Program-made: the position numbers and the translations under genes
Shown: piece by piece, positions 14,808 to 28,831 of the stretch
Layout: each line of letters begins with the position of its first letter
How positions within the stretch are numbered: position 1 is the stretch's first letter
NCBI GenBank assembly: GCA_020341815.1
Contig: CP070837.1
Coordinates: 1,432,195-1,474,606, forward strand
Source: Candidatus Omnitrophota bacterium
Lineage (GTDB): Bacteria > Omnitrophota > Gorgyraeia > JAFGHF01
Reading direction: 5' to 3'
DNA length: 42,412 nucleotides
The notes under the pieces: generated by a model
The model's input: only the letters and a program-made list of their open reading frames with translations
Databases searched by the model: none
What the model was told of the DNA's origin: nothing

Positions 14808-16850
14808 ATGGAAAGCAAATTGAAGCATAAAACGATCATATATTTGGCAGACCTTGCTAATACTAAATTTGGCTGCAGCCCTGCAACAGTTCCCCTGGCC
14901 ATAGGCTATATTAAGGCTTATGCAGTATCCCAATTACCCGAGAAAGTCGATATCCAATTATTCAGGACGCCTGAATCGCTTTTTAAAGCGATTCAGACCA
15001 GGGAGCCCGATATCGTTGGATGTGCCTGGTATGGCTGGAATCGCTGGCTTACTATTAGCGCCTTAACATATATAAAACGCTTTTTTCCCGATGTGATAAC
15101 GGTTGTGGGAGGGGCGAATGTTCCCGAAAGAATTCAGGATTCCCTTAGGGATTTCAAAGAGTTCCCCTGTATAGATATTATGATTCCAAATGAAGGAGAA
15201 ATCCCTTTTGTCAATTTATTAAAGATTTTTATTCAAGGGGGGAAGAAGCAGACTTTTAAAATTCCTATCGATGGAGCCTTCTATTTATCGGAATCCGGCG
15301 AAGAAATAATTACGGGAAAGCCTCTTGGCCTGGTGGAAGATGTTAACATTTTTCCTTCGCCTTATTTAAGCTCCTGCCTCGACCAATTTTTAGATGGAGA
15401 GCTGATGCCGGTATTGCAAACACTCAGAGGCTGCCCGTTTCATTGTTCTTTTTGTGTCTCGGCAAGAGATTCCTGGAACAGAATACGCTCATTTGAATTA
15501 GAGAGAGTAAAAGCAGAAATTAAATATTTAGAGGCCAATGCCAGAAACAGAACGATTCGTTTTGCAGATGAAAATTTCGGCATCATCCCCAGAGATTTAG
15601 AAATAGCAAGATTTATAACAAAGAATCGAATTGAGACCAATTATCCTGCTGCGGTTCGTGTGTACACCCATAAAAATATCAATAGCCACGTAAAAGAAAT
15701 AACTTTGTTATTGAAAGATTTAATCCCAATGAATATTAGCTGTCAAACATTGACAGAGCCGGTAGTAAAAAATATTAAACGAAAAAATATAAGCTTAGAT
15801 ACATTTCAAGACGCGGTAAACTGGGCGCACAATAATAATATTAATGCGACCACCGAAATTATATTTGGTTTGCCCGGAGAAACTTATAGCTCGTTTATGG
15901 AGGTAATAAATCAACTTGTCCAATTACGCCTTGATAGCGTTTCGACGGGAACGTTGATGATGCTTAAAGAAACCGAGATAAATCGACCGGAGATAATCGA
16001 AGAATACGGTTACGAGATATTATATAGCGTTGCCGAACGGGGTTACACAAAATTCGGCGATTTTGAGAACGTAGAGATAGATGCCTGGGCAGTAAAAAGC
16101 AATTTTTACAGTTTTGAGGAGTATATTAGAATAAATTTATTTCTCTTGGTTTACCGCCTCTTTATGTTTTGGGGATATTTCAAGGAAATGGTTTATATGT
16201 GGGAGAACAGAGGGATAAAAATCGGAGATGTTATTTTGGAATTCCTCGAGAGCCCTGCTGATTATCCTCTTTTTTCGCAGCAGATCGAGCGGCTTAAAAA
16301 ATGTCTTCAAGATAATTTATTCCATACAAAAGAAGAGGTTCGCAGGATTTTTGGCCAGCGTTTTTCGAAGGGTAGCGATGCAGACAATTATATCGGCTTT
16401 ATGTCGCCTTTCATCTTGTCTAAGATTATAAAAGGCGAGATGCTTTATATATCGAATCAAGAAAAGACGGTCGATGAGGTTATCAAGGCCTCTACGGCAG
16501 TGTTTAATAGATGCGGCAGAGGTAATTTATCTGAATTCTTGGAAGAAATGCGTTTTGCGAAAACCCTTACGCAGAGCATTGTTATATCATTTTGGGAGAC
16601 GCCTCAAGAGACAAAAATTCTCTCAAGCCCGTATGATTTAATATCCTGGCGCAATCAAGACTATCGCGGAGAGCTTTCTAAATTTACTTTGGAACAACCG
16701 ATAGAATATCAATACAGGATTAATTCTTTTAATGAGTATAAAAATTTTATCCGTGAAAACTCCAAAAGGCCTTTCCACATACAGTCTGAATTTTTCTTTC
16801 GTACATTTCGCAGTAATAACGTTAGGCGTTACATAAGTTCAAAAATATAG
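14808..16850 (+). CDS. B12-binding domain radical SAM protein (third), with long C-terminal extension
   Basis: At 680 residues this is the longest of the six B12-radical SAM proteins. Residues 1-190 form a cobalamin-binding-like domain with GGANVPERIQ and PNEGE. C209, C213 and C216 in CPFHCSFC bind the [4Fe-4S] cluster, and the barrel continues to about residue 400, with FGLPGET near its end. The last 270 or so residues form an extension I cannot place, rich in aromatic and charged residues. The gene is AT-rich like its upstream neighbour, from which it is separated by five bases. Substrate unknown; a sugar, lipid carrier or peptide substrate are all possible. Confidence 0.85.
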   Translation: MESKLKHKTIIYLADLANTKFGCSPATVPLAIGYIKAYAVSQLPEKVDIQLFRTPESLFKAIQTREPDIVGCAWYGWNRWLTISALTYIKRFFPDVITVVGGANVPERIQDSLRDFKEFPCIDIMIPNEGEIPFVNLLKIFIQGGKKQTFKIPIDGAFYLSESGEEIITGKPLGLVEDVNIFPSPYLSSCLDQFLDGELMPVLQTLRGCPFHCSFCVSARDSWNRIRSFELERVKAEIKYLEANARNRTIRFADENFGIIPRDLEIARFITKNRIETNYPAAVRVYTHKNINSHVKEITLLLKDLIPMNISCQTLTEPVVKNIKRKNISLDTFQDAVNWAHNNNINATTEIIFGLPGETYSSFMEVINQLVQLRLDSVSTGTLMMLKETEINRPEIIEEYGYEILYSVAERGYTKFGDFENVEIDAWAVKSNFYSFEEYIRINLFLLVYRLFMFWGYFKEMVYMWENRGIKIGDVILEFLESPADYPLFSQQIERLKKCLQDNLFHTKEEVRRIFGQRFSKGSDADNYIGFMSPFILSKIIKGEMLYISNQEKTVDEVIKASTAVFNRCGRGNLSEFLEEMRFAKTLTQSIVISFWETPQETKILSSPYDLISWRNQDYRGELSKFTLEQPIEYQYRINSFNEYKNFIRENSKRPFHIQSEFFFRTFRSNNVRRYISSKI

Positions 16851-16868
16851 CAAAAGGTTCATAGCTTG

Positions 16869-16875
16869 AAGGAGG
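16869..16875 (+). promoter_or_regulatory. Strong Shine-Dalgarno site deciding the pseB start
   Basis: AAGGAGG lies five bases before the ATG at 16881. An in-frame TTG at 16866 would add five residues but sits before the site, so the ATG is the start. This strong site opens the pseudaminic acid block after the AT-rich pair of genes. Confidence 0.8.
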
Positions 16876-16880
16876 AAAAG

Positions 16881-17849
16881 ATGTCTTTAGAGGGAAAAAC
16901 AATATTGTTAACGGGCGGCACAGGTTCGTTCGGGCAGAAATTTACGGAAATAATACTGAAGAAGTACAATCCGGAGGTGATAAGGATTTTTAGCCGCGAT
17001 GAATTAAAGCAATGGGAGATGGAAAAAAAGTTCGGAAGCGATGAGCGCTTAAGATTTTTTATCGGCGACGTAAGGGATAAGGAAAGGCTGGAGCGGGCAA
17101 TGGACGGGGCCGATATTGTGGTGCACGCCGCCGCCTTAAAACAGGTGCCTTTGTGCGAATATAATCCCTTTGAGGCGGTAAAGACAAATATTCTGGGGGC
17201 GCAAAACGTAATCCAGGCCGCTATCGACCATAATATAGAAAAGGTCCTCGCCATAAGCAGCGATAAAGCGGTAAACCCGGTAAATCTATACGGCGCTACC
17301 AAGATGTGCATGGAGAAGCTCTTTACTGCCGCAAATGCCTATGTAGGCAAACACAGGCAAACCAGGATGTCCTGCGCCCGTTATGGGAATGTAGTGGGAA
17401 GCAGGGGCAGTATCATCCCCTTGATTAAACAGCAGAAGCTGCAGGGTGAAATTACCATCACCGATGAGAGGATGACGCGCTTCTGGATTACATTGGATCA
17501 GGGGGTGGAATTTGTCATAACATGCATAGACGTTATGCAGGGGGGAGAGATATTTGTCCCCAAGATACCGAGCATGAAGATTACCGATTTGGTCCATGCC
17601 CTGGCCCCCGAGTGCAAGGTCAAGTTTATCGGCATCAGGCCGGGTGAGAAGATTCATGAGTGTTTGCTGACCGAAAATGAAGTAAGGCACTCCTTGGAAC
17701 TTGATGGTTTCTTTCTTGTTCAGCCGGAACACGAGTTTCGACAGGTAAAAAACTATAAAGGCGGCAAGGCTTTGCCTAGCGGCTTCCGATATACAAGCGA
17801 TAAGAACGAGGACTGGCTGACAACAGAGAAGCTGAAAGAGATGATGTAA
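16881..17849 (+). CDS. pseB: UDP-GlcNAc 4,6-dehydratase (inverting), PseB
   Basis: The 322-residue protein begins MSLEGKTILLTGGTGSFGQ, the PseB/FlaA1 signature. SSDKAVNP (126-133) and Y137/K141 in NLYGATK supply the catalytic Asp, Lys and Tyr of inverting 4,6-dehydratases. It converts UDP-GlcNAc to UDP-2-acetamido-2,6-dideoxy-beta-L-arabino-hexos-4-ulose, the first step of pseudaminic acid synthesis. The following genes pseC, pseF, pseG-pseH and pseI complete the route. Length and motifs are normal for the family. A second copy of the 117-base repeat begins four bases after the stop codon. Confidence 0.95.
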   Translation: MSLEGKTILLTGGTGSFGQKFTEIILKKYNPEVIRIFSRDELKQWEMEKKFGSDERLRFFIGDVRDKERLERAMDGADIVVHAAALKQVPLCEYNPFEAVKTNILGAQNVIQAAIDHNIEKVLAISSDKAVNPVNLYGATKMCMEKLFTAANAYVGKHRQTRMSCARYGNVVGSRGSIIPLIKQQKLQGEITITDERMTRFWITLDQGVEFVITCIDVMQGGEIFVPKIPSMKITDLVHALAPECKVKFIGIRPGEKIHECLLTENEVRHSLELDGFFLVQPEHEFRQVKNYKGGKALPSGFRYTSDKNEDWLTTEKLKEMM

Positions 17850-17852
17850 CGG

Positions 17853-17969
17853 TTATGAACCCCGCCCTTCCAAGCATCACGGCTTGCATAGGAGATACGG
17901 GCGAAGGCAATAGAAGGAAAGACGGGGAATGAAGAATTGGCATTAGGAAGAAAGGAAGAGCGGGGTGAA
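17853..17969 (+). repeat. 117-bp intergenic repeat, copy 2
   Basis: This is the second copy of the element at 4416-4532, ungapped and about 90 percent identical. It fills the whole gap between pseB and pseC and supplies the AGGAAG ribosome site (17953-17958) and GTG start of pseC. End complementarity is better here: 17859-17871 pairs with 17954-17966 at 12 of 13 positions. A small inner stem CAAGC/GCTTG (17871-17875 with 17882-17886) is present in this copy but broken in copy 1. The last 33 bases are identical in both copies, the stretch that carries the ribosome site. Confidence 0.85.
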
Positions 17970-19149
17970 AAAAATACCTTACGGCCATCAACGTATCGAA
18001 AAAGATGACATTCAGGCAGTAGTTGAGGTCCTTGAATCCCCCTGGATTACCCAGGGGCCGATGCTAAAGCGGTTCGAAGACGCCCTCTGTAAATATACGG
18101 GCGCCAAATATGCCCTTTGCGTATCCAGCGCAACGGCAGCCTTGCATATAGCATGTCTGGCTGCCGGGATAAAGGCGCAGGATGAGGTAATTACCTCATC
18201 CCTAACCTTTGTTGCTTCGGCAAATTGTGTTTTGTATTGCGGAGGCAGGCCGGTCTTTGCCGATATTCACAAGGATAGAGCCAACATCGATGCGGAGAAA
18301 ATTGAGGAGAAGATAACCGCAAAGACCAAGGCTATAATTCCCGTCCATTACGCCGGCGGGCCCTGTGATTTAAAAAAGATTGCCGCTATTGCCGGAAAGC
18401 ATAATTTACTGGTGATCGAAGACGCCGCCCATGCCCTGGGGGCAGAATATAACGGCTCGAAGGTCGGTTCCTGCAGGTATTCCGATATGGCGGTCTTCAG
18501 CTTCCATCCCGTCAAGCATATAACCACGGGAGAGGGAGGGGCAGTTCTAACTAATAAAAAAAACCTGTACGAGAAACTTCTCAAACTGCGCAATCACGGT
18601 ATTACCAAAGAAAACTCAAAATTCAGGATTCGCAATTCCCGCACATCCGGCGGCTGGTTTTATGAAATGCAGGAGCTGGGATTTAATTACCGCCTGACGG
18701 ACTTTCAGTGCGCTTTGGGATTGAGCCAGCTTAAGAAGCTCGATAATTTTATCAAAAGAAGACGGGAAATAGCGGGTATTTATAATCAAAAATTGGCCGC
18801 AGTTTGCGGGATTGATTTACCCCGCCAGAACCTTGAGTGTTCCTGGCACCTCTATTCTATAAGGCTAAAGGAACCCAAGAGAAGAAGGGATATTTTTGAA
18901 AAACTGCACCGTGCCGGTATCGGCGCTCAGGTGCATTATATCCCGGTGTATTTTCACCCCTATTACCGGAAATTAGGATATAAAAGGGGTCTGTGCCCGA
19001 ATGCCGAGGACTTTTATCGCAGACAGATAAGTATTCCTCTCTATCAGTCTATGACTGAGCAAGACGTTAACTGTGTAATCGATAGTATTTACAAAATATT
19101 CAACGAATTAGAAAAATCTCCGGAAAAAATAAGAAGAAAGCGAGAATAG
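17965..19149 (+). CDS. pseC: PseC aminotransferase (UDP-4-amino-4,6-dideoxy-AltNAc forming)
   Basis: The 394-residue DegT-family protein starts at a GTG inside the repeat; MKKIPYGHQRI is the normal PseC beginning, so the start is sound. K184 in FSFHPVKHITTGEGG is the intact Schiff-base lysine, unlike the two His variants elsewhere in the window, and IEDAAHALGA gives the cofactor Asp. It transfers the amino group of glutamate to C4 of the PseB product. Context between pseB and the rest of the Pse genes makes the assignment firm. It ends one base before the amidotransferase gene. Confidence 0.94.
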   Translation: MKKIPYGHQRIEKDDIQAVVEVLESPWITQGPMLKRFEDALCKYTGAKYALCVSSATAALHIACLAAGIKAQDEVITSSLTFVASANCVLYCGGRPVFADIHKDRANIDAEKIEEKITAKTKAIIPVHYAGGPCDLKKIAAIAGKHNLLVIEDAAHALGAEYNGSKVGSCRYSDMAVFSFHPVKHITTGEGGAVLTNKKNLYEKLLKLRNHGITKENSKFRIRNSRTSGGWFYEMQELGFNYRLTDFQCALGLSQLKKLDNFIKRRREIAGIYNQKLAAVCGIDLPRQNLECSWHLYSIRLKEPKRRRDIFEKLHRAGIGAQVHYIPVYFHPYYRKLGYKRGLCPNAEDFYRRQISIPLYQSMTEQDVNCVIDSIYKIFNELEKSPEKIRRKRE

Positions 19150-19150
19150 A

Positions 19151-20281
19151 ATGCGTTACTGCAAAAAATGTCTGATGCCCGATACCAGGCCGGGTTCTAT
19201 TTTCAGCGAAGAGAATATCTGTCAGGCTTGCTCTAACTATGAAAGACGAAAGACAATCAACTGGGGCCAAAGGAAAGAAGAATTAAAGAAGCTCTGTGAT
19301 AAATATAGAAGGCAGGACGGCTATTATGACTGCATTATACCGGTCAGCGGAGGCAAAGACAGCCATTTCCTTGTCCATACGATAAAGAAGGAAATGGGGA
19401 TGAATCCGCTCCTTGTGACAGTGGGGGATCCCTTCACCAAGACCCAGGCCGGATTGAATAATTTCAGGAATTTGGGAGATGCCTTTGGCTGCGACCATAT
19501 CGTATTTAATCTGAGCATTGACCTGTTCAGGAGGGTGACCAGGATAGCCTTTGAAGAATTGGGGGAGCCTTTGCGCTTTGTGGAGGCGGCAATCTACACC
19601 GTTCCCTTAAAGATGGCTATAAAGCTTGAGATACCTCTGGTCGTATTTGGGGAATATTCGGGATATGAATACGGCGCTACCGGAAAGGACAACTATTCGG
19701 CGTTTACCTATATCCTGCAGATATTTAAGGCGATTGACATTGATTTCTGGCTGCAAAGAGGGGTATCGAGAAAAGAAGTTAATGCCATTACCCCGCCTAC
19801 AGAAGAGGAGCTTAAGAAATTGAGGCCGGAAGTGATTTTTATGAGTTATTTCAGTCCCTGGAGCAGCCTGAGGCACTTGGAGATTGCAAAGAAATACGGC
19901 TTCAGGGGTTTAGGCGATGAATGGCAGAGGGAAGGCTGCATTGAAGACTTTGAGCAGATAGATTCCATTGCCTATATAGTCCATCTCTGGCTGAAATACC
20001 CCAAATTCGGCTTTCAGAGAACTTCGGATATTGCCAGCCGGCGCGTTCGGGAAGGCAGGCTTGATTTGCCGGAGGCCCAAAGGCTGATTGAAGAATGCGA
20101 CCATAAGCTGGACCCGAGGGCAATGGAAGACTTTATCCGCTTCTTAAAATATACGCCGGAGGAGTTCTGGGGTGTAGTTGAGCGTTTCTGGAATCGCGAC
20201 ATATTTGAAAAAGTTGAGGGAAAATGGCGCCTGAAAGACCCTGCGGGCGCAGGCTTGATTAAAGGAGCTAAAGATGCTTAA
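19151..20281 (+). CDS. pseA: N-acetyl sugar amidotransferase (PseA/WbpG-like)
   Basis: The 376-residue protein opens with a four-Cys zinc-ribbon-like site (C4, C7, C24, C27) and then the PP-loop SGGKDS at 66-71, which binds ATP for adenylation. This is the layout of the N-acetyl sugar amidotransferase family, including PseA and WbpG, which turn an acetamido group into an acetamidino group with ammonia from a glutaminase partner. In a Pse cluster it suggests the product carries an acetamidino group (Pse5Ac7Am or similar). No separate HisH/HisF-type glutaminase gene lies in the window, so the ammonia source is unknown. It overlaps the methyltransferase by eight bases. Confidence 0.85.
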   Translation: MRYCKKCLMPDTRPGSIFSEENICQACSNYERRKTINWGQRKEELKKLCDKYRRQDGYYDCIIPVSGGKDSHFLVHTIKKEMGMNPLLVTVGDPFTKTQAGLNNFRNLGDAFGCDHIVFNLSIDLFRRVTRIAFEELGEPLRFVEAAIYTVPLKMAIKLEIPLVVFGEYSGYEYGATGKDNYSAFTYILQIFKAIDIDFWLQRGVSRKEVNAITPPTEEELKKLRPEVIFMSYFSPWSSLRHLEIAKKYGFRGLGDEWQREGCIEDFEQIDSIAYIVHLWLKYPKFGFQRTSDIASRRVREGRLDLPEAQRLIEECDHKLDPRAMEDFIRFLKYTPEEFWGVVERFWNRDIFEKVEGKWRLKDPAGAGLIKGAKDA

Positions 20282-20930
20282 GGCTACTTTTCAACTGGAG
20301 AGGTGGGAAGGTGATTTCGGTAAGGAATACACCGACAGAAATGCGCTTTCTCCGGATGGGCTGGAAAAGTTATATAAGGATCACTACGGGATAACCAGGA
20401 CAGAGCTGAATAACTTATTTTTGCAGGGGATGGAGCGCTCTTTGCGTATCCTTGAGGTTGGCTCCAATGTCGGCAATCAGCTGCTTTGCCTGCAGAAAAT
20501 GGGCTTTAATAATTTATACGGAATTGAGCCGCAGGATTATGCGGTCGAGCTTTCCAAGAGAAGAACCGAGCATATTAATATTATCAGGGGCAGCGCTTTC
20601 GATATTCCCTTTAAGGACGGATATTTTGACCTTGTTTTTACCTCAGGGGTGCTCATACATATCAACCCCAAAGATATAGGCCGCGCTTTAAGGGAAATCT
20701 CCAGGTGCAGCAATAAATATATCTGGGGATTAGAGTATTATGCGGAAAAATACGAAGAAATCGTATATAGGGGAGAAAAAAACCTGCTCTGGAAAACAGA
20801 TTTTGCAAAGCTGTATCAGGAGACATTACCGGCTTTTGAGCTGGTTAAAGAACAGAAGTTTAAATACCTGAGTAATGACAAGATAACTACGGGATTTCTC
20901 CTTAAAAAGAAAGACAAGCCGGAAATATGA
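20274..20930 (+). CDS. SAM-dependent methyltransferase, pseudaminic-acid-associated type
   Basis: The 218-residue class I methyltransferase has motif I EVGSNVGNQ at 61-69, an acidic IEPQ after strand two, and the FDIPFKDGYFDLVFTSGVLIHI core. The N-terminal WEGDFGKEYTDRN segment matches the group of small methylases found with pseudaminic acid genes. It probably methylates a Pse intermediate or the finished sugar, but the atom methylated is unknown. It overlaps the amidotransferase by eight bases and the following radical SAM gene by four, so all three are likely co-translated. A role on another nucleotide sugar is possible. Confidence 0.8.
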   Translation: MLKATFQLERWEGDFGKEYTDRNALSPDGLEKLYKDHYGITRTELNNLFLQGMERSLRILEVGSNVGNQLLCLQKMGFNNLYGIEPQDYAVELSKRRTEHINIIRGSAFDIPFKDGYFDLVFTSGVLIHINPKDIGRALREISRCSNKYIWGLEYYAEKYEEIVYRGEKNLLWKTDFAKLYQETLPAFELVKEQKFKYLSNDKITTGFLLKKKDKPEI

Positions 20931-22291
20931 AAATACTTTTGATAAACCCGCCTATCAGAGAATGGGCCAAGCCCAATGTTTTACCCTTGGGGTTGGGGTA
21001 TATAGCCTCTATATTAAAGAGATCCGGCTATGAGGTTGAGATGATGGATATTAATGCCCGGAGGTTCTCACCCGTAGAAGTGGAAGATAGGCTTAAAACG
21101 GCGGATTTTGACGCAGTGGGCATCGGGGCGATCGTAACAGTTTACAAGTATGTTAAATGGCTGATAGCGAAGTTAAAAAAATATCACCCTGATAAAAAGA
21201 TTATAATAGGCGGAAGTATAGGCACTTCTATCCCGCATATTATACTTGAGAAGACAGAGGCCGATATTGTCTGTATAGGCGAAGGCGAAGTTACGGTAGT
21301 TGAGCTTATGCAGGCCTTGGAGCAGAAGAGGGATTTATCTGCTGTAGAAGGGATATGGTTCAGAGATAAAGATGGCAGAATTTGCCACAATAAAGAAAGA
21401 GCTCCCATTAAGAATCTGGATGACATCTCTTTTCCTGCCTGGGACCTTTTCCCTATGGAAATCTATCTCAAGAATCCGGTTGGTGCGCCCAACAGAAATA
21501 AATGGATAGACGGCGCCTCCGATAAAGAGGCTGTATTGTCAATGAATTTAAGCGGCTCCAGGGGGTGTCCCTACAAATGTATTTACTGCTATCATGATTT
21601 CATGGGCCAGAGATACAGGCACCGCTCTGCCCGGAGCATAATAGATGAAATGAGGATTTTGAATGATAAATATAAGGTCGAGTATTTTCATTTTATAGAT
21701 GATGAATTTTGCCTGAATAAGAACTTTGTCTATGATTTTTGCCGGGCGAAAAAGAAAGCATTTGGTAACAAGATAACCTGGGGGTGCACCGGCAGGGTAA
21801 ATCTGATGACGGAGGATTTGATTGCCGAAATGGCCGATGCAGGATGCGTCCTGATCGGTTACGGTATTGAGTCGGGAAGTCAGAAGATTCTGGACGTCTT
21901 GAAAAAAGACTCAACTGTCGAGCAGGCAAAGGAAGCGGTAAGATTGACGATTAAACACCTTGGCTGGGCGGACTGCTCCTTTATGATCGGCTCGCCCGGA
22001 GAAAACTCCGAGACTATCAAGGAAACGGTTGATTTCTGCAAAGAGTTGGACTTGACGCCTGAGGTAATATTTTTTGTTACGCCCTATCCGGGCACGGAAT
22101 TATATTCGATGGCCTTGTCTCAGGGAAAGATTAAAGACGAAGAGGAATATCTCCTGGGAATGGGCGAGCAGGGCGAGAAGATAAGGGTTAACTTCTCCGA
22201 GCTCTCCGATACAGAACTAAAAAAGATTCAGGATAGGATGATTAAAAAACTGAATGCCTGGAATAAAATAAAGCACCCCGAGAGCAGATAA
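20927..22291 (+). CDS. B12-binding domain radical SAM protein (fourth), inside the Pse block
   Basis: The 454-residue protein has the short two-domain form. The cobalamin-binding part occupies residues 1-185 (LINPPIREW, GGSIGTSIPH, IGEGE). The radical SAM barrel has C214, C218 and C221 in CPYKCIYC and ends in TPYPGTELY. Its start overlaps the methyltransferase stop as ATGA, and pseF follows one base after its stop. This tight linkage suggests it acts on pseudaminic acid or a precursor, for instance by C-methylation or another radical change. That is inference; characterised Pse pathways contain no such enzyme. Confidence 0.9.
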   Translation: MKILLINPPIREWAKPNVLPLGLGYIASILKRSGYEVEMMDINARRFSPVEVEDRLKTADFDAVGIGAIVTVYKYVKWLIAKLKKYHPDKKIIIGGSIGTSIPHIILEKTEADIVCIGEGEVTVVELMQALEQKRDLSAVEGIWFRDKDGRICHNKERAPIKNLDDISFPAWDLFPMEIYLKNPVGAPNRNKWIDGASDKEAVLSMNLSGSRGCPYKCIYCYHDFMGQRYRHRSARSIIDEMRILNDKYKVEYFHFIDDEFCLNKNFVYDFCRAKKKAFGNKITWGCTGRVNLMTEDLIAEMADAGCVLIGYGIESGSQKILDVLKKDSTVEQAKEAVRLTIKHLGWADCSFMIGSPGENSETIKETVDFCKELDLTPEVIFFVTPYPGTELYSMALSQGKIKDEEEYLLGMGEQGEKIRVNFSELSDTELKKIQDRMIKKLNAWNKIKHPESR

Positions 22292-22292
22292 G

Positions 22293-23018
22293 ATGAATAT
22301 ATTATGCCTTATACCGGCAAGAGGAAAAAGCAAGAGAATACCGAATAAGAACCTCAGGAAGCTGTTGGGAAAGCCGCTGATCGGCTACACAATAGAAAAG
22401 GCCTTGAAGAGTAAGCTCTGCACCAGAGTTGCTGTCTCTACGGATGAGGCGGATATTGCTGCGGTTGCCAGAGAATACGGCGCAGATATTGTTATGAGGC
22501 CGGATAATCTTGCGCAGGACGAATCCCCTATTGATGATGCGCTTCGCCATGCCTTGAGACATTTTGAGAAGAAGGATGGCCGGAGAATCGAGATAGCAGT
22601 GCTTCTTCAGGCAAATGTGCCCGTAAGGAAAGACGGAGAGATTGACGAGGTTATAAATAAATTGATAGAAAATAAGGATGCCACAGCTACTACTACAGTA
22701 TATGCGGTGGATCAGCGGCCGGAATGGGCCAAGACTATTGAAGGGGAGACGGGTATTATCAGGCCCTTTATGGAGCCGACGGAGCTGTATAGGAAACAAA
22801 CTCTCGCAGACCTCTATTTATTGGACGGGGCGATTACCGCCGTTAGACGGGAGGCGCTCCTCGCAACAGAAGGCATGAGGAAGATTCATGCCTATATGGG
22901 CGAGAGGGTCTATCCCCTCAGGCACGCCAGGAAGTACGCCACAGAGGTTGATGAAGAGGAAGACTTCGAGCTGGCAGAGTATTACCTGCTTGGAGAAAAG
23001 AAGCAGGCAATGGTCTGA
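22293..23018 (+). CDS. pseF: CMP-pseudaminic acid synthetase, PseF/NeuA family
   Basis: The 241-residue cytidylyltransferase begins MNILCLIPARGKSKRIPNKN. The family usually has ARGGSKRIP; here a Lys replaces the second Gly, a small departure in the nucleotide-binding loop. VLLQANVPVRKDGEID near residues 107-122 is the sugar-binding region. It joins CTP and the nonulosonic acid to give the CMP-activated donor, normally the last cytoplasmic step. It follows the fourth radical SAM gene by one base and precedes the PseG-PseH fusion by 11 bases. NeuA-type activity on another nonulosonic acid is possible, but the complete Pse set favours PseF. Confidence 0.9.
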   Translation: MNILCLIPARGKSKRIPNKNLRKLLGKPLIGYTIEKALKSKLCTRVAVSTDEADIAAVAREYGADIVMRPDNLAQDESPIDDALRHALRHFEKKDGRRIEIAVLLQANVPVRKDGEIDEVINKLIENKDATATTTVYAVDQRPEWAKTIEGETGIIRPFMEPTELYRKQTLADLYLLDGAITAVRREALLATEGMRKIHAYMGERVYPLRHARKYATEVDEEEDFELAEYYLLGEKKQAMV

Positions 23019-23029
23019 GAAAGCGTTCT

Positions 23030-24430
23030 ATGGATGTGAAGACTTTGATAATTACAGAAGGCGGAAACAAACTGGGTTTTGGGCATGTTACCAGGTGCCT
23101 TTCTTTGTATCAGGCATTTGAGGAGAAAGGAATATCTGCCGGGATTATCGTAGGCGGCGATAGAAGTGTTAAGAAGGCGCTTAAGAGAAAGAAAGCCAAT
23201 ATCTTTAATTGGTTGAAAGAAGAAAAGAAGCTCCTTTCTCTGGCAAAAGATAAGGATATTGTCATTATAGATTCTTATTTAGCGCCTAAAGCTTTGTATG
23301 AAAAATTATCTTCACTGCTTAATGGCGGGATTTTAGTAATGATAGATGATAACAAAAGAATAAATTATCCCCAGGGCGTTGTAATCAACCCTTCGATTTA
23401 TGCAGAAAGGCTTAATTATCCTCAAAAAGAAGGATTGCATTACCTTTTGGGAAAAGACTATATAATTTTACGCAGGGAATTCCGGAATATTCATAAAAAA
23501 AAGATTAATAAGCAATTAAAGAATGTTTTAATTGCTCTGGGGGGAAGTAATTATTCTGAATTGTCCCGTAGAATAATCGGTTATCTTAAAGATAAGTTCG
23601 ATTTTAATTTTTATGCGGTTGAACCGAAAAAAAATATGCTCAGCGCCAGAGCAATGATTAAATTAATGCGCGGAACCGACACCTGTATCTCGGGCGGAGG
23701 TCAGACCACTTATGAGCTGGCAAGATGCGGTGTGCCTGCAATTGGCATTTGCCTGGCGGATAACCAGCTGTCGAATTTAAAGAGCTGGGCTGCTTTGGGT
23801 TTTCTGGAGTTTGCCGGATGGTTTAATGAAAAAAAATTATTTGAGAATATAGAAAAAGCTTTGAGGGCGCTGGATTATAAAAAACGCCTTAAGATGAGTG
23901 AGGTTGGCCGGGATTTGGTTGACGGCCGGGGGGCGCAAAGGTCTATTGAGGAGATCCTGCGGATTAAGCAGGGTATAACCTTGAATGCGGCGTGCAAAAG
24001 TGATTGTGAGGATATCCGCATCTGGAGAAATCATCCCCTGGCGCGGAGAAACTCCTTTAATGAAAGGCCTGTGTCAAAACAGGAACATATAAGATGGTTT
24101 AATTCAAAGATGAAAGATCGCAATACAAAGATATATATCGCCAGGCGGGGGAAGGAAAAACTGGGAGTTATCAGATTTGCCCTGGCGGGAGATTCTGCCA
24201 CGGCAAGCGTCAACTTAAACCCCGATTTCTTCGGCAGGGGCCTGGGGACGAGGCTTATCAGGCAGGGTACAGAGAAGCTTTTTCAGGAGGCAAAGACTCT
24301 CAAGAGGGTGATTGCGGAAATAAAAAGGGGTAATATTGCTTCACAAAAGGCCTTCCTGAAAGCCGGATATGAACCTCGGGGAGAGACAGAAGAAAAATTA
24401 ATTTATAAAAAGGAAATATCTCATGTTTGA
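23030..24430 (+). CDS. pseG-pseH: Fused PseG hydrolase and PseH acetyltransferase
   Basis: The 466-residue protein joins two enzymes. Residues 1 to about 310 are PseG, the hydrolase that removes UDP from the diacetamido sugar: TEGGNKLGFGHVTRC includes H19, and the GT-B-like domain has ISGGGQTTYELARCG. Residues about 320-466 are a GNAT acetyltransferase equivalent to PseH. It opens with ITLNAACKSDCEDIRIWRNH and has the acetyl-CoA loop GRGLGTRL, and it acetylates the 4-amino group before hydrolysis. Fusion places consecutive steps in one chain. The gene overlaps pseI by eight bases. Stop and frame are clean, so the fusion is not a sequencing artefact that I can see. Confidence 0.92.
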   Translation: MDVKTLIITEGGNKLGFGHVTRCLSLYQAFEEKGISAGIIVGGDRSVKKALKRKKANIFNWLKEEKKLLSLAKDKDIVIIDSYLAPKALYEKLSSLLNGGILVMIDDNKRINYPQGVVINPSIYAERLNYPQKEGLHYLLGKDYIILRREFRNIHKKKINKQLKNVLIALGGSNYSELSRRIIGYLKDKFDFNFYAVEPKKNMLSARAMIKLMRGTDTCISGGGQTTYELARCGVPAIGICLADNQLSNLKSWAALGFLEFAGWFNEKKLFENIEKALRALDYKKRLKMSEVGRDLVDGRGAQRSIEEILRIKQGITLNAACKSDCEDIRIWRNHPLARRNSFNERPVSKQEHIRWFNSKMKDRNTKIYIARRGKEKLGVIRFALAGDSATASVNLNPDFFGRGLGTRLIRQGTEKLFQEAKTLKRVIAEIKRGNIASQKAFLKAGYEPRGETEEKLIYKKEISHV

Positions 24431-25460
24431 CCGGGTTTTTATCGTAGCGGAGATTTCAGCCAATCATGCCCAGGATTTCGAAAAGGCCGTTAGGATGATA
24501 AAGAAGGCCAAGGCCTGCGGGGCAGATGCGGTCAAATTCCAGACCTATACTCCCGATACCTTGACCATAAATAGCAACAATAGCTTCTTCAGGATAAAGC
24601 ATCCTAACTGGAAAGATGCGACCTTGTATCAGCTTTATAAGAGGGCCCATACCCCCTGGGAGTGGTTTAAGAGGCTGAAAAAAGCCGCCGATGAGGCAGG
24701 AGTTATGTTTTTCTCAACCTCCTTTGACAGGCGTGCGGTGGATTTATTGGAAGAATTAAACGTCCCTGTGCATAAAATTGCCTCCTTTGAACTGGTGGAT
24801 CTGCCTCTGATAGAGTATGCGGCTGCCACAAGGAAACCGTTAATTTTATCTACAGGCATGGCAACGAAAGCCGAGATTAAAGAGGCGGTAAACACGGCAA
24901 AGGCGGCCGGGGCGGCCGAGATAGTCTTATTAAAATGCGTGAGCGATTATCCGGCCAGGATTGAGGAGATGAATTTAAAGACAATTCCGCATATGCAAAA
25001 GACATTTAAATGTCCCGTAGGGCTTTCGGACCACACCCTGGGCACAAGTGTGCCAATAGCTGCGGTTTCCCTGGGTGCGGTTATGATTGAGAAGCACCTT
25101 ACTTTATCCCGGAAGCTTAAGACCCCCGACAGTTTCTTCTCCATTGAACCGGGTGCTTTCAAAGAATTGATAAAGAGTATAAGGTGCGCGGAGAAGGCCT
25201 TAGGGCACATCCATTACGGCCTGACAGAGGGAGAGAAGAAAAATCGTATTTTCAGGCGTTCTCTGTTCGCCGTTAAAGATATAAAAAAGGGCGAGAGGCT
25301 CAGCGAAGAAAATATAAGCTCCGTAAGGCCGGCTTACGGGCTTTCTCCCAAATATGCCAGGGATATTCTGGGAAGAACAGCAAAAAAAGATATCGCAAGA
25401 GGAACTCCTCTTGAATGGAAGTTGATCTCGAGCCCTCGGCTTCGCCGAAAGGCGAGTTAA
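24423..25460 (+). CDS. pseI: Pseudaminic acid synthase PseI
   Basis: The 345-residue NeuB-family protein has the TIM-barrel start FIVAEISANHAQDFE and VKFQTYTPDTLT, the PseI/NeuB signatures, and a C-terminal SAF (antifreeze-like) domain from about residue 280. It condenses phosphoenolpyruvate with the six-carbon acetamido sugar to form pseudaminic acid. It overlaps the PseG-PseH fusion by eight bases. The last residues are encoded by a short GC-rich hairpin (25436-25448) just before the stop, and the next gene starts five bases after it. Legionaminic or sialic acid synthase is the alternative, but PseB and PseC settle the route. Confidence 0.93.
   Translation: MFDRVFIVAEISANHAQDFEKAVRMIKKAKACGADAVKFQTYTPDTLTINSNNSFFRIKHPNWKDATLYQLYKRAHTPWEWFKRLKKAADEAGVMFFSTSFDRRAVDLLEELNVPVHKIASFELVDLPLIEYAAATRKPLILSTGMATKAEIKEAVNTAKAAGAAEIVLLKCVSDYPARIEEMNLKTIPHMQKTFKCPVGLSDHTLGTSVPIAAVSLGAVMIEKHLTLSRKLKTPDSFFSIEPGAFKELIKSIRCAEKALGHIHYGLTEGEKKNRIFRRSLFAVKDIKKGERLSEENISSVRPAYGLSPKYARDILGRTAKKDIARGTPLEWKLISSPRLRRKAS
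25436..25448 (+). other. Small GC-rich hairpin at the end of pseI
   Basis: TCGGC pairs with GCCGA around a TTC loop, with a possible outer CTCG/CGAG pairing reaching 25456. It sits inside the last codons of pseI, 18 bases before the next start. No U-run follows, so it is not an intrinsic terminator. It lies at the point where base composition turns AT-rich. It may affect coupling of the next gene or be a palindromic repeat fragment. Confidence 0.4.
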
Positions 25461-27358: not shown

Positions 27359-28831
27359 ATGAGTAAAAAAATATTGTTATTAAAAATCGAGAATAAATTT
27401 GTTTACAATCCTTTAGGATTGCTCTATGTCGGTTCTTACTTAAAAAACAACGGTTACGATGTAGAGTTAGAGATAGTCCCTTTAAAATCTTTTACGGAAG
27501 ATTCTTTTGTGGAACGCAAGGCAAAAAAGATAGCGGAAGGAAACTATCTTTTTGTCGGTTTTTCGGTTTTAACAGGCCCGCAAACAAAATTCTCGGCAAT
27601 TTTATCGAAAAAGATAAAAGAGTTTGATAATAAACTCCCGATTGTTTGGGGCGGAGTTCACCCTTCCCTTGTACGTGAACAGACGCTAAAAGAGCCGTAT
27701 GTAGATATTATTGTGATGGGGGAGGGCGAAAAGACCGCCCTGGAGCTTGCCAGTGCTTTATTATCGCAGGATAGAGACCTTAGCTTAGTCCGGGGTATAG
27801 GTTATAAAAAGACCGGTGAGCTTATCTTCAATCAGGGGCGGGAACTTATTAAGGATTTAGACGAAATTCAGCTGGATTGGTCGCTCGTAGATATGAAAAA
27901 GTGTTTGCTGGATGTTCCCGGGAAGAACGTAAAGGATTTCTCATATATAACATCAAGAGGATGCCCTCATTTTTGTTCTTTTTGTTATAATAAAACTTTC
28001 CATAAAAGAAAATGGCGGACTCATTCTTTGGAGAGAATCATATCCGATATAAAGCAGCTTAAGAAAAATTATGGGATGAAGACCGTTTCATTTCTTGATG
28101 ACCATTTTTTCGTAAATAAGAACAGGTCTTTCGAAATACTTTCCAGATTAAAGGATATAGATGTTAACTGTACGGGATTTCTTCTCAGAATCGATGAAAT
28201 TACCGAAGATTCGGTAAAAAGGCTTTATGATTTGGGAGTGAAAAGCCTTTTTATAGGCATAGAGTCGGGCAATGATAGAATCCTTTCTCTTATGAATAAA
28301 AATACAAATAAAAAGATGATATTAGAGAAATTTTCCATCCTTTCACAGTATAAAGATATAGCAATAGGGGCCAACAAGATAATAGGATATCCAACCGAGA
28401 CAATGGAAGAAATAGAAGATAGTTTGGACTTAAGTATAAAATTATCCGAACTTATTCCGGGAATAGTCGTGACATACAATACATTTTTACCTTATCCCGG
28501 GACAGAGGCATATCAGCTTGCTCTGCAGGAAGGTTTCAGGCCGCCCCTTACGACGGAAGATTATGAAATCTATGATACATTTGGAGGTTCGATGCCTATC
28601 TCATGGTTACCATGGCAGAACAAAAATACACGCGAGCTCTTTTTCAGGATAGATAAATATGCAAAACTTTTGACACGCTCAAAGAGTACCTCCGCCTTAA
28701 GGACTTTAGGAAAGAACCTTTTTCATAATATGGCAAAATTCAGGCTTAAACACAGATTCTTTGCGTTTCCATTCGAGATATTTGTTTTATTCAGATTCAA
28801 CAGATACTATAACCCGGATTGTAAAATTTAA
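27359..28831 (+). CDS. B12-binding domain radical SAM protein (fifth)
   Basis: The 490-residue protein has the cobalamin-binding domain (GGVHPSLVREQ and MGEGE) and the cluster Cys C202, C206 and C209 in CPHFCSFC. DDHFFVNKNR and GIESGNDRI follow in the barrel. A basic C-terminal 90 residues extends past it. A 60-base gap before it, AT-rich, is one of the larger ones in the window. It sits between a putative glycosyltransferase and the flippase, so its substrate could be a lipid-linked sugar as easily as a nucleotide sugar. No closer assignment is possible. Confidence 0.9.
   Translation: MSKKILLLKIENKFVYNPLGLLYVGSYLKNNGYDVELEIVPLKSFTEDSFVERKAKKIAEGNYLFVGFSVLTGPQTKFSAILSKKIKEFDNKLPIVWGGVHPSLVREQTLKEPYVDIIVMGEGEKTALELASALLSQDRDLSLVRGIGYKKTGELIFNQGRELIKDLDEIQLDWSLVDMKKCLLDVPGKNVKDFSYITSRGCPHFCSFCYNKTFHKRKWRTHSLERIISDIKQLKKNYGMKTVSFLDDHFFVNKNRSFEILSRLKDIDVNCTGFLLRIDEITEDSVKRLYDLGVKSLFIGIESGNDRILSLMNKNTNKKMILEKFSILSQYKDIAIGANKIIGYPTETMEEIEDSLDLSIKLSELIPGIVVTYNTFLPYPGTEAYQLALQEGFRPPLTTEDYEIYDTFGGSMPISWLPWQNKNTRELFFRIDKYAKLLTRSKSTSALRTLGKNLFHNMAKFRLKHRFFAFPFEIFVLFRFNRYYNPDCKI

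Follow-up and report, generated by a model that had tools for sequence, protein, structure and literature searches.

Results and Discussion

A B12-radical SAM gene within the pseudaminic acid cluster

The window, as the whole analysed stretch of 42,412 nucleotides will be referred to, covers positions 1,432,195-1,474,606 of the 1.55 Mb single-contig genome of a Candidatus Omnitrophota bacterium and carries a gene cluster for the synthesis of pseudaminic acid (Pse), in which a gene encoding a B12-binding radical S-adenosylmethionine (SAM) protein of 454 amino acids (aa) is located between pseC and pseF. Nonulosonic acids, to which Pse belongs, are surface sugars involved in cell recognition and in flagellar and surface-layer (S-layer) glycosylation. 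All genes between 16866 and 25460 are co-directional on the + strand and are arranged as follows (scores refer to the respective family models and their curated cut-offs):

16866-17849, + strand: pseB, inverting uridine diphosphate (UDP)-N-acetylglucosamine 4,6-dehydratase; TIGR03589, 490 bits, above the cut-off of 408
17965-19149, + strand: pseC, UDP-4-keto sugar aminotransferase; TIGR03588, 520 bits, above the cut-off of 424
19151-20281, + strand: WbuX/PseA-type N-acetyl sugar amidotransferase of the acetamidino-forming type; TIGR03573, 316 bits, above the cut-off of 203
20274-20930, + strand: Pse-associated SAM-dependent methylase; TIGR03587, 178 bits, above the cut-off of 112
20927-22291, + strand: B12-binding radical SAM protein, 454 aa; Pfam B12-binding (PF02310), 65 bits, above the cut-off of 32, and Radical_SAM, 90 bits, likewise above cut-off
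22293-23018, + strand: pseF-like cytidine monophosphate (CMP)-nonulosonate cytidylyltransferase; TIGR03584, 128 bits, below the cut-off of 206; member of a radical-SAM-linked subclade in the tree
23030-24430, + strand: PseG-PseH fusion (UDP-sugar hydrolase and N-acetyltransferase); TIGR03590 at residues 5-249, TIGR03585 at residues 323-456
24423-25460, + strand: pseI, pseudaminic acid synthase; TIGR03586, 477 bits, above the cut-off of 340

The PseB, PseC and PseI equivalogs are all above their cut-offs, as expected of a CMP-Pse cluster. The first-pass annotation had described it as a complete pse set with extra genes in overlapping series. All genes and their order agree with this description, and the overlaps are exact, with 8 bases shared by the amidotransferase and methylase genes (20274-20281) and 4 bases by the methylase and radical SAM genes (20927-20930); the pseF-like gene starts 1 base after the radical SAM gene. 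However, pseG and pseH form one fused open reading frame, and besides PseF both parts of the fusion remain below cut-off with respect to their best family matches (PseG 111 bits versus 154, PseH 50 versus 93). Compared to the CMP-Pse pathway of Campylobacter and Helicobacter (PseB-C-H-G-I-F), the window shares the three equivalogs and homologues of PseG, PseH and PseF, but differs in the fusion of PseG with PseH, in the divergence of PseF, PseG and PseH, and in the additional B12-radical SAM gene between pseC and pseF. A scan for promoters and terminators yielded the same number of promoters as in shuffles.

Recurrence of the radical SAM gene in Pse-type clusters

Approximately 85,000 species genomes were scanned with the 454-aa protein, and further whole-genome searches were performed in Omnitrophota, Nitrospirota and Planctomycetota. 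The scan yielded 17 loci, 15 at 56-75% identity and two more distant, from Omnitrophota, Nitrospirae, Brocadiaceae and other planctomycetes, a deltaproteobacterium (placed in Myxococcota), Margulisbacteria, an actinomycete bin and a bin of the candidate phyla radiation. Close relatives (56-75% identity) span at least seven phyla, among them Omnitrophota, Nitrospirota and Planctomycetota, and the whole-genome searches added three close members. The gene is infrequent, being detected in 5/384 Omnitrophota, 3/246 Nitrospirota and 2/246 Planctomycetota genomes, and a search for viral and plasmid carriage revealed no relative. The close set forms a clade (Shimodaira-Hasegawa-like approximate likelihood ratio test, 97) in which the phyla are intermixed; since its branching does not track the phyla of the organisms, the gene has spread by horizontal transfer. 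In an alignment of 17 members the mean column identity is 73%, the CX3CX2C motif (C214/C218/C221) is invariant, and NPPIREWxxPN and CYHDFMG are recognizable as family signatures.

The neighbourhoods of 19 close members, the window included, were compared with those of eight wide control loci carrying 33-38% relatives. Seventeen of the 19 are found in clusters with at least two Pse-type genes, in most cases with pseC immediately upstream and a cytidylyltransferase gene downstream, whereas none of the eight control loci lies in a pseB/pseC cluster (Fisher p = 2e-5); the arrangement is therefore not due to chance. Two types of clusters can be distinguished. Type A (the window, L026, L027, L030, L034, L035, L036, L039 and L047) has the order pseB-pseC-(amidotransferase/hisH/hisF/methylase)-radicalSAM-pseF-pseG(H)-pseI, with variations. 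In type B (L028, L029, L031, L032, L033, L040, L048 and L094) pseB, pseC and the radical SAM gene are followed, in this order, by genes for a Gfo/Idh oxidoreductase, a cytidylyltransferase and a class III aminotransferase, and several of these clusters also encode a PseI/NeuB-like synthase; this gene set suggests an extra amino group on a nonulosonate. The nearest sister of the family, L081 (38% identity), has the NPPIREW signature and the pseC-X-pseF slot in common with it, and the gene of L041 (36%) lies ahead of a type B cluster. Across many phyla, the B12-radical SAM gene is thus a genuine conserved, recurring and widely transferred part of clusters of the Pse type.

It might be argued that the target of the protein is a carrier or a different part of the glycan and that its gene merely travels with the pse genes, as surface-polysaccharide loci of these bacteria are rich in B12-radical SAM genes. 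Indeed, relatives are numerous in the 1.43-1.54 Mb stretch of this genome, and surface loci contain other B12-radical SAM genes as well. Nevertheless, the pseC-X-cytidylyltransferase slot is conserved within the clade in unrelated phyla with differing flanking glycan genes, but not in the other relatives (0/8 wide loci), and we consider such an unrelated role improbable.

Cofactor domain and structural features of the 454-aa protein

An AlphaFold2 model of the protein, with a predicted local distance difference test score (pLDDT) of 87, shows Rossmann strands at residues 2-7, 36-41, 63-68, 91-95 and 114-116 and a hairpin at 143-146/152-154. A five-stranded Rossmann B12 domain with a C-terminal hairpin defines class 1 of the cobalamin radical SAM enzymes (PMC13331322), and the 454-aa protein possesses both in addition to the CX3CX2C motif in its radical SAM domain. 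The structural matches to the model were MgmA, TsrM and AprD4, then OxsB and CysS, with MgmA and TsrM both being methylases. TsrM Arg69 and OxsB Asn186 are positioned under the cobalt, where the methylase TokK has a hydrophobic cap (PMC13331322). By sequence alignment, the corresponding column is occupied by Ile69, which is invariant in the 17-member alignment and represents the non-coordinating bulky or hydrophobic residue expected under the cobalt of a methyltransferase. Most enzymes of the cobalamin-dependent class are methylases and few are not (PMC13142503). MgmA, TsrM, TokK and CysS resemble the 454-aa protein in domain order, Rossmann B12 domain and hairpin, CX3CX2C motif and non-coordinating lower-face residue, but are only 16-22% identical to it in structural alignments, and the N-terminal signatures NPPIREWxxPN and CYHDFMG are its own. 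The protein passes no NCBIfam equivalog cut-off, remaining below that of every methyltransferase equivalog compared (HpnR, KedN5, PhpK, Sden_1168, MgmA-type (MJ_0865) and Trp C2-MT).

Relation to the amidotransferase and methylase genes

The first-pass annotation had placed the genes for the amidotransferase, the methylase and the radical SAM protein in one overlapping series; read as a functional series, the three enzymes would act on one position of the sugar. The overlapping genes of the window are in favour of this, as is the methylase-radicalSAM-pseF order, which is repeated in L034. However, the TIGR03587 methylase is present in 19/384 Omnitrophota genomes, nearly always within Pse clusters, and just one of these 19, that of the window, also carries a close radical SAM gene. 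Likewise, 15 out of the 16 genome records reached by the radical SAM search lack the methylase, the exception being L034. Methylase and radical SAM gene were consequently rejected as one unit, and joint action of all three enzymes on one position appears very unlikely. The same annotation had proposed to search for the gene order in other genomes and to abandon the idea if the radical SAM gene were absent from all other Pse clusters with the same methylase. The radical SAM gene does recur in Pse-type clusters of many phyla, but its combination with the methylase recurs in L034 only. For this pairing the absence was therefore nearly complete, but the pairing had been the wrong test.

The nearest methylase cluster, L084, which comprises methylase and amidotransferase, is 69% identical to the window in pseB, 70% in the amidotransferase, 63% in the methylase and 68% in pseI. 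There, a different cytidylyltransferase gene directly follows the methylase gene in place of the radicalSAM-pseF pair of the window, so that this pair looks like an exchangeable cassette. Neither hisH nor hisF was found beside the amidotransferase of the window; a HisF-HisH fusion (552 aa), the sole one elsewhere in the genome, adjoins a second WbuX amidotransferase at ~1396000-1398500 of the genome contig (L113). In Campylobacter, legionaminic acid receives an N-methyl-acetamidino group through PtmG and PtmH, and Pse clusters of Clostridium also contain methyltransferases (PMC13317340). As in the window, an amidotransferase and a methyltransferase are combined in a nonulosonate cluster, PtmH being compared here with the TIGR03587 methylase by role. 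These systems differ in that no radical SAM gene is mentioned for them, the term 'radical' being absent from the paper (PMC13317340).

Proposed function of the radical SAM enzyme

In trees of PseI, PseB, PseC and the cytidylyltransferase, members with and without the radical SAM gene were marked, and the numbers of changes were compared with shuffles. PseI and PseB showed no clustering (7 changes versus about 8) and PseC weak clustering (5 versus 9.0), whereas clustering was strong for the cytidylyltransferase (4 versus 13.5). Two cytidylyltransferase subclades, separate from the enzymes of other clusters, consist exclusively of members adjoining the radical SAM gene or a distant relative of it. 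CMP activation could thus be specialised for a modified sugar, with the radical SAM enzyme acting before CMP transfer. Types A and B share PseB and PseC as pathway enzymes, so the radical SAM enzyme may also act on the PseC product. A PseF-type cytidylyltransferase as such was rejected as an indicator of the radical SAM gene, as PseF-like enzymes occur in 123/384 Omnitrophota genomes and the radical SAM gene in 5/384.

Based on sequence and model, we propose, with a probability of approximately one half, that the 454-aa protein tailors a Pse-type nonulosonate by cobalamin-dependent radical SAM chemistry, with C-methyl transfer as the most likely reaction. It would represent a distinct cobalamin-dependent radical SAM family dedicated to the synthesis of Pse-type nonulosonic acids, for which we infer cobalamin use, substrate, step and methyl transfer from the features described above. 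PseB and PseC would generate the 4-amino-6-deoxy-L-altro sugar nucleotide, which PseH, PseG and PseI would convert to the nine-carbon acid prior to activation by the cytidylyltransferase. One of these intermediates would be altered in its carbon skeleton by the radical SAM enzyme before or at CMP activation. Methylation of an unactivated carbon is the most likely reaction, in which methylcobalamin would be the methyl donor and the 5'-deoxyadenosyl radical would abstract the hydrogen. In the genome of the window, the amidotransferase and the SAM-dependent methylase probably add a separate group (acetamidino, N-methylated), and the final sugar would bear both modifications. An unusual Pse derivative as product, as had been suggested initially with a C-methylated form as an example, can be fairly inferred because the radical SAM gene is conserved in Pse-type clusters and no such step was found in the accessible literature; C-methylation is the commonest chemistry of the enzyme class.

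Several observations weigh against this proposal. Linked co-transfer of two adjacent genes explains the clustering in the trees equally well, and since both clustering genes, pseC and the cytidylyltransferase gene, are the direct neighbours of the radical SAM gene, co-evolution was set aside as a means of timing the step; candidate substrates range from the PseC product to the free nonulosonate. Two of the 19 close members, L037 and L038, lack pseB and pseC nearby. In favour of the proposal, L037 encodes a Maf-type protein (transferase) directly downstream of the radical SAM gene and a nonulosonate synthase nearby. No nonulosonate gene was found among the neighbours of L038. Furthermore, the best NCBIfam scores of the protein were obtained with the non-methylases HpnJ (186 bits) and BchE (184 bits), both far below cut-off, and the highest whole-length template modelling score (TM-score), 0.73-0.74 normalised to the query, with AprD4, a diol dehydratase.

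The profile scores would fit a non-methylating cobalamin radical SAM enzyme comparable to OxsB, HpnJ or BchE, which rearranges, contracts, cyclises or oxidises the sugar ring or side chain to yield a skeleton-altered nonulosonate. The failure of the family to pass any methylase cut-off agrees with this, and HpnJ acts on hopanoid-linked glucosamine, an amino-sugar-bearing lipid, in a reaction described as ring contraction (PMC8590665). The scores, however, amount to only about a third to two fifths of the cut-offs, and they say little because an unrelated generic paralogue at 27359-28831 of the window also scores best to BchE and HpnJ. Membership in HpnJ or BchE was rejected on the cut-offs (186 bits versus 577.6 for HpnJ, TIGR03471) and, for HpnJ, on a tree as well: the five HpnJ sequences included form a separate clade that is not sister to the radical SAM family and lacks the GG and GEGE motifs. 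The small number of non-methylases in the enzyme class (PMC13142503) and the replacement of the OxsB-type Asn under the cobalt by the invariant Ile further argue against a non-methylating enzyme, which we regard as unlikely. Slightly less likely still is its most far-reaching form, in which an OxsB- or HpnJ-like rebuilding of the skeleton (ring contraction or carbocycle) would create a new class of nonulosonic acids with a dedicated cytidylyltransferase, the radicalSAM-cytidylyltransferase cassette being traded across many phyla.

The similarity to AprD4 might instead point to an AprD4- or DesII-like radical lyase or dehydrogenase without working cobalamin, removing a hydroxyl or amino group from the PseC product or from Pse. 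AprD4 has the same length as the 454-aa protein, an amino-sugar substrate and, besides its TM-score, a strong match in the radical SAM domain; DesII deaminates the analogous thymidine diphosphate-4-amino-4,6-dideoxyhexose (PMC11434129). Yet the family profile can be aligned with the N-terminal domains of B12 enzymes but not with that of AprD4, and with 93 bits the protein stays far below the AprD4 cut-off of 500 (NF033070). Deamination of the PseC product would take away the target group of PseH, which is nonetheless retained. To our knowledge, Pse and its precursors contain no vicinal diol, which counts against an AprD4-like dehydration, and a lyase of this kind seems a rather poor candidate.

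Other radical enzymes and genes of the region

A second B12-radical SAM gene ends 15 bases upstream of pseB:

14808-16850, + strand: B12-radical SAM protein, 680 aa, KedN5-like; KedN5 model 191 bits, below the cut-off of 700

In L030, a homologue with 68% identity lies immediately upstream of the radical SAM gene and overlaps it by 4 bases, and no other homologue was found among 145 sampled Omnitrophota genomes. The KedN5-like protein is a probable extra member of the Pse cluster. The paralogue at 27359-28831 is the third B12-radical SAM gene of the window, which itself is part of a 110-kb surface-polysaccharide region (1426657-1539369 of the genome contig) with approximately 15 B12-radical SAM homologues.

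In a type B cluster of Brocadiaceae a SPASM-type radical SAM protein is encoded between pseB and pseC (L029:1689-2744) as a further radical enzyme. Formyltransferase-like genes are located next to pseG or pseI in several Pse-type clusters (L027:13099-13710, L072, L074 and L079), which suggests N-formyl Pse.

Outside the window, a frame on the genome contig runs for 45,379 codons without a stop and includes HEAT-repeat-like stretches as well as a segment of the B12-radical SAM type (E 4e-31). Two 20-kb samples were taken around 1248227-1249390 and 1170000-1189999, L155 within this frame and L156 ~60-80 kb upstream; each contains one frame without stops and no N. An enzyme domain within a giant Omnitrophota frame is odd; giant genes and Omnitrophota are mentioned together in those parts of the literature that were accessible.

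Implications for nonulosonate biology

A literature search, with subscription papers outside its range, revealed no relevant paper joining radical SAM chemistry with the synthesis of pseudaminic or other nonulosonic acids, which agrees with the initial statement that a radical SAM step is absent from known Pse routes; a search on anammox nonulosonates found nothing. Pathway and enzyme superfamily are both known; a conserved pathway step that combines the two is undescribed as far as could be tested. The recurring radical SAM gene points to an undescribed modification of Pse-type sugars, possibly an added carbon branch. The nonulosonate diversity known to us (acetyl, formyl, amidino, N- and O-methyl groups, epimers) concerns substituents or configuration and not the carbon skeleton. 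If the proposal is correct, bacteria would also alter the carbon skeleton of nonulosonates by means of a conserved B12-radical SAM enzyme encoded in the clusters, and analysts would gain a mass shift together with a gene marker (NPPIREW / CYHDFMG, pseC-X-pseF) for samples containing anammox bacteria, Nitrospirota and Omnitrophota.

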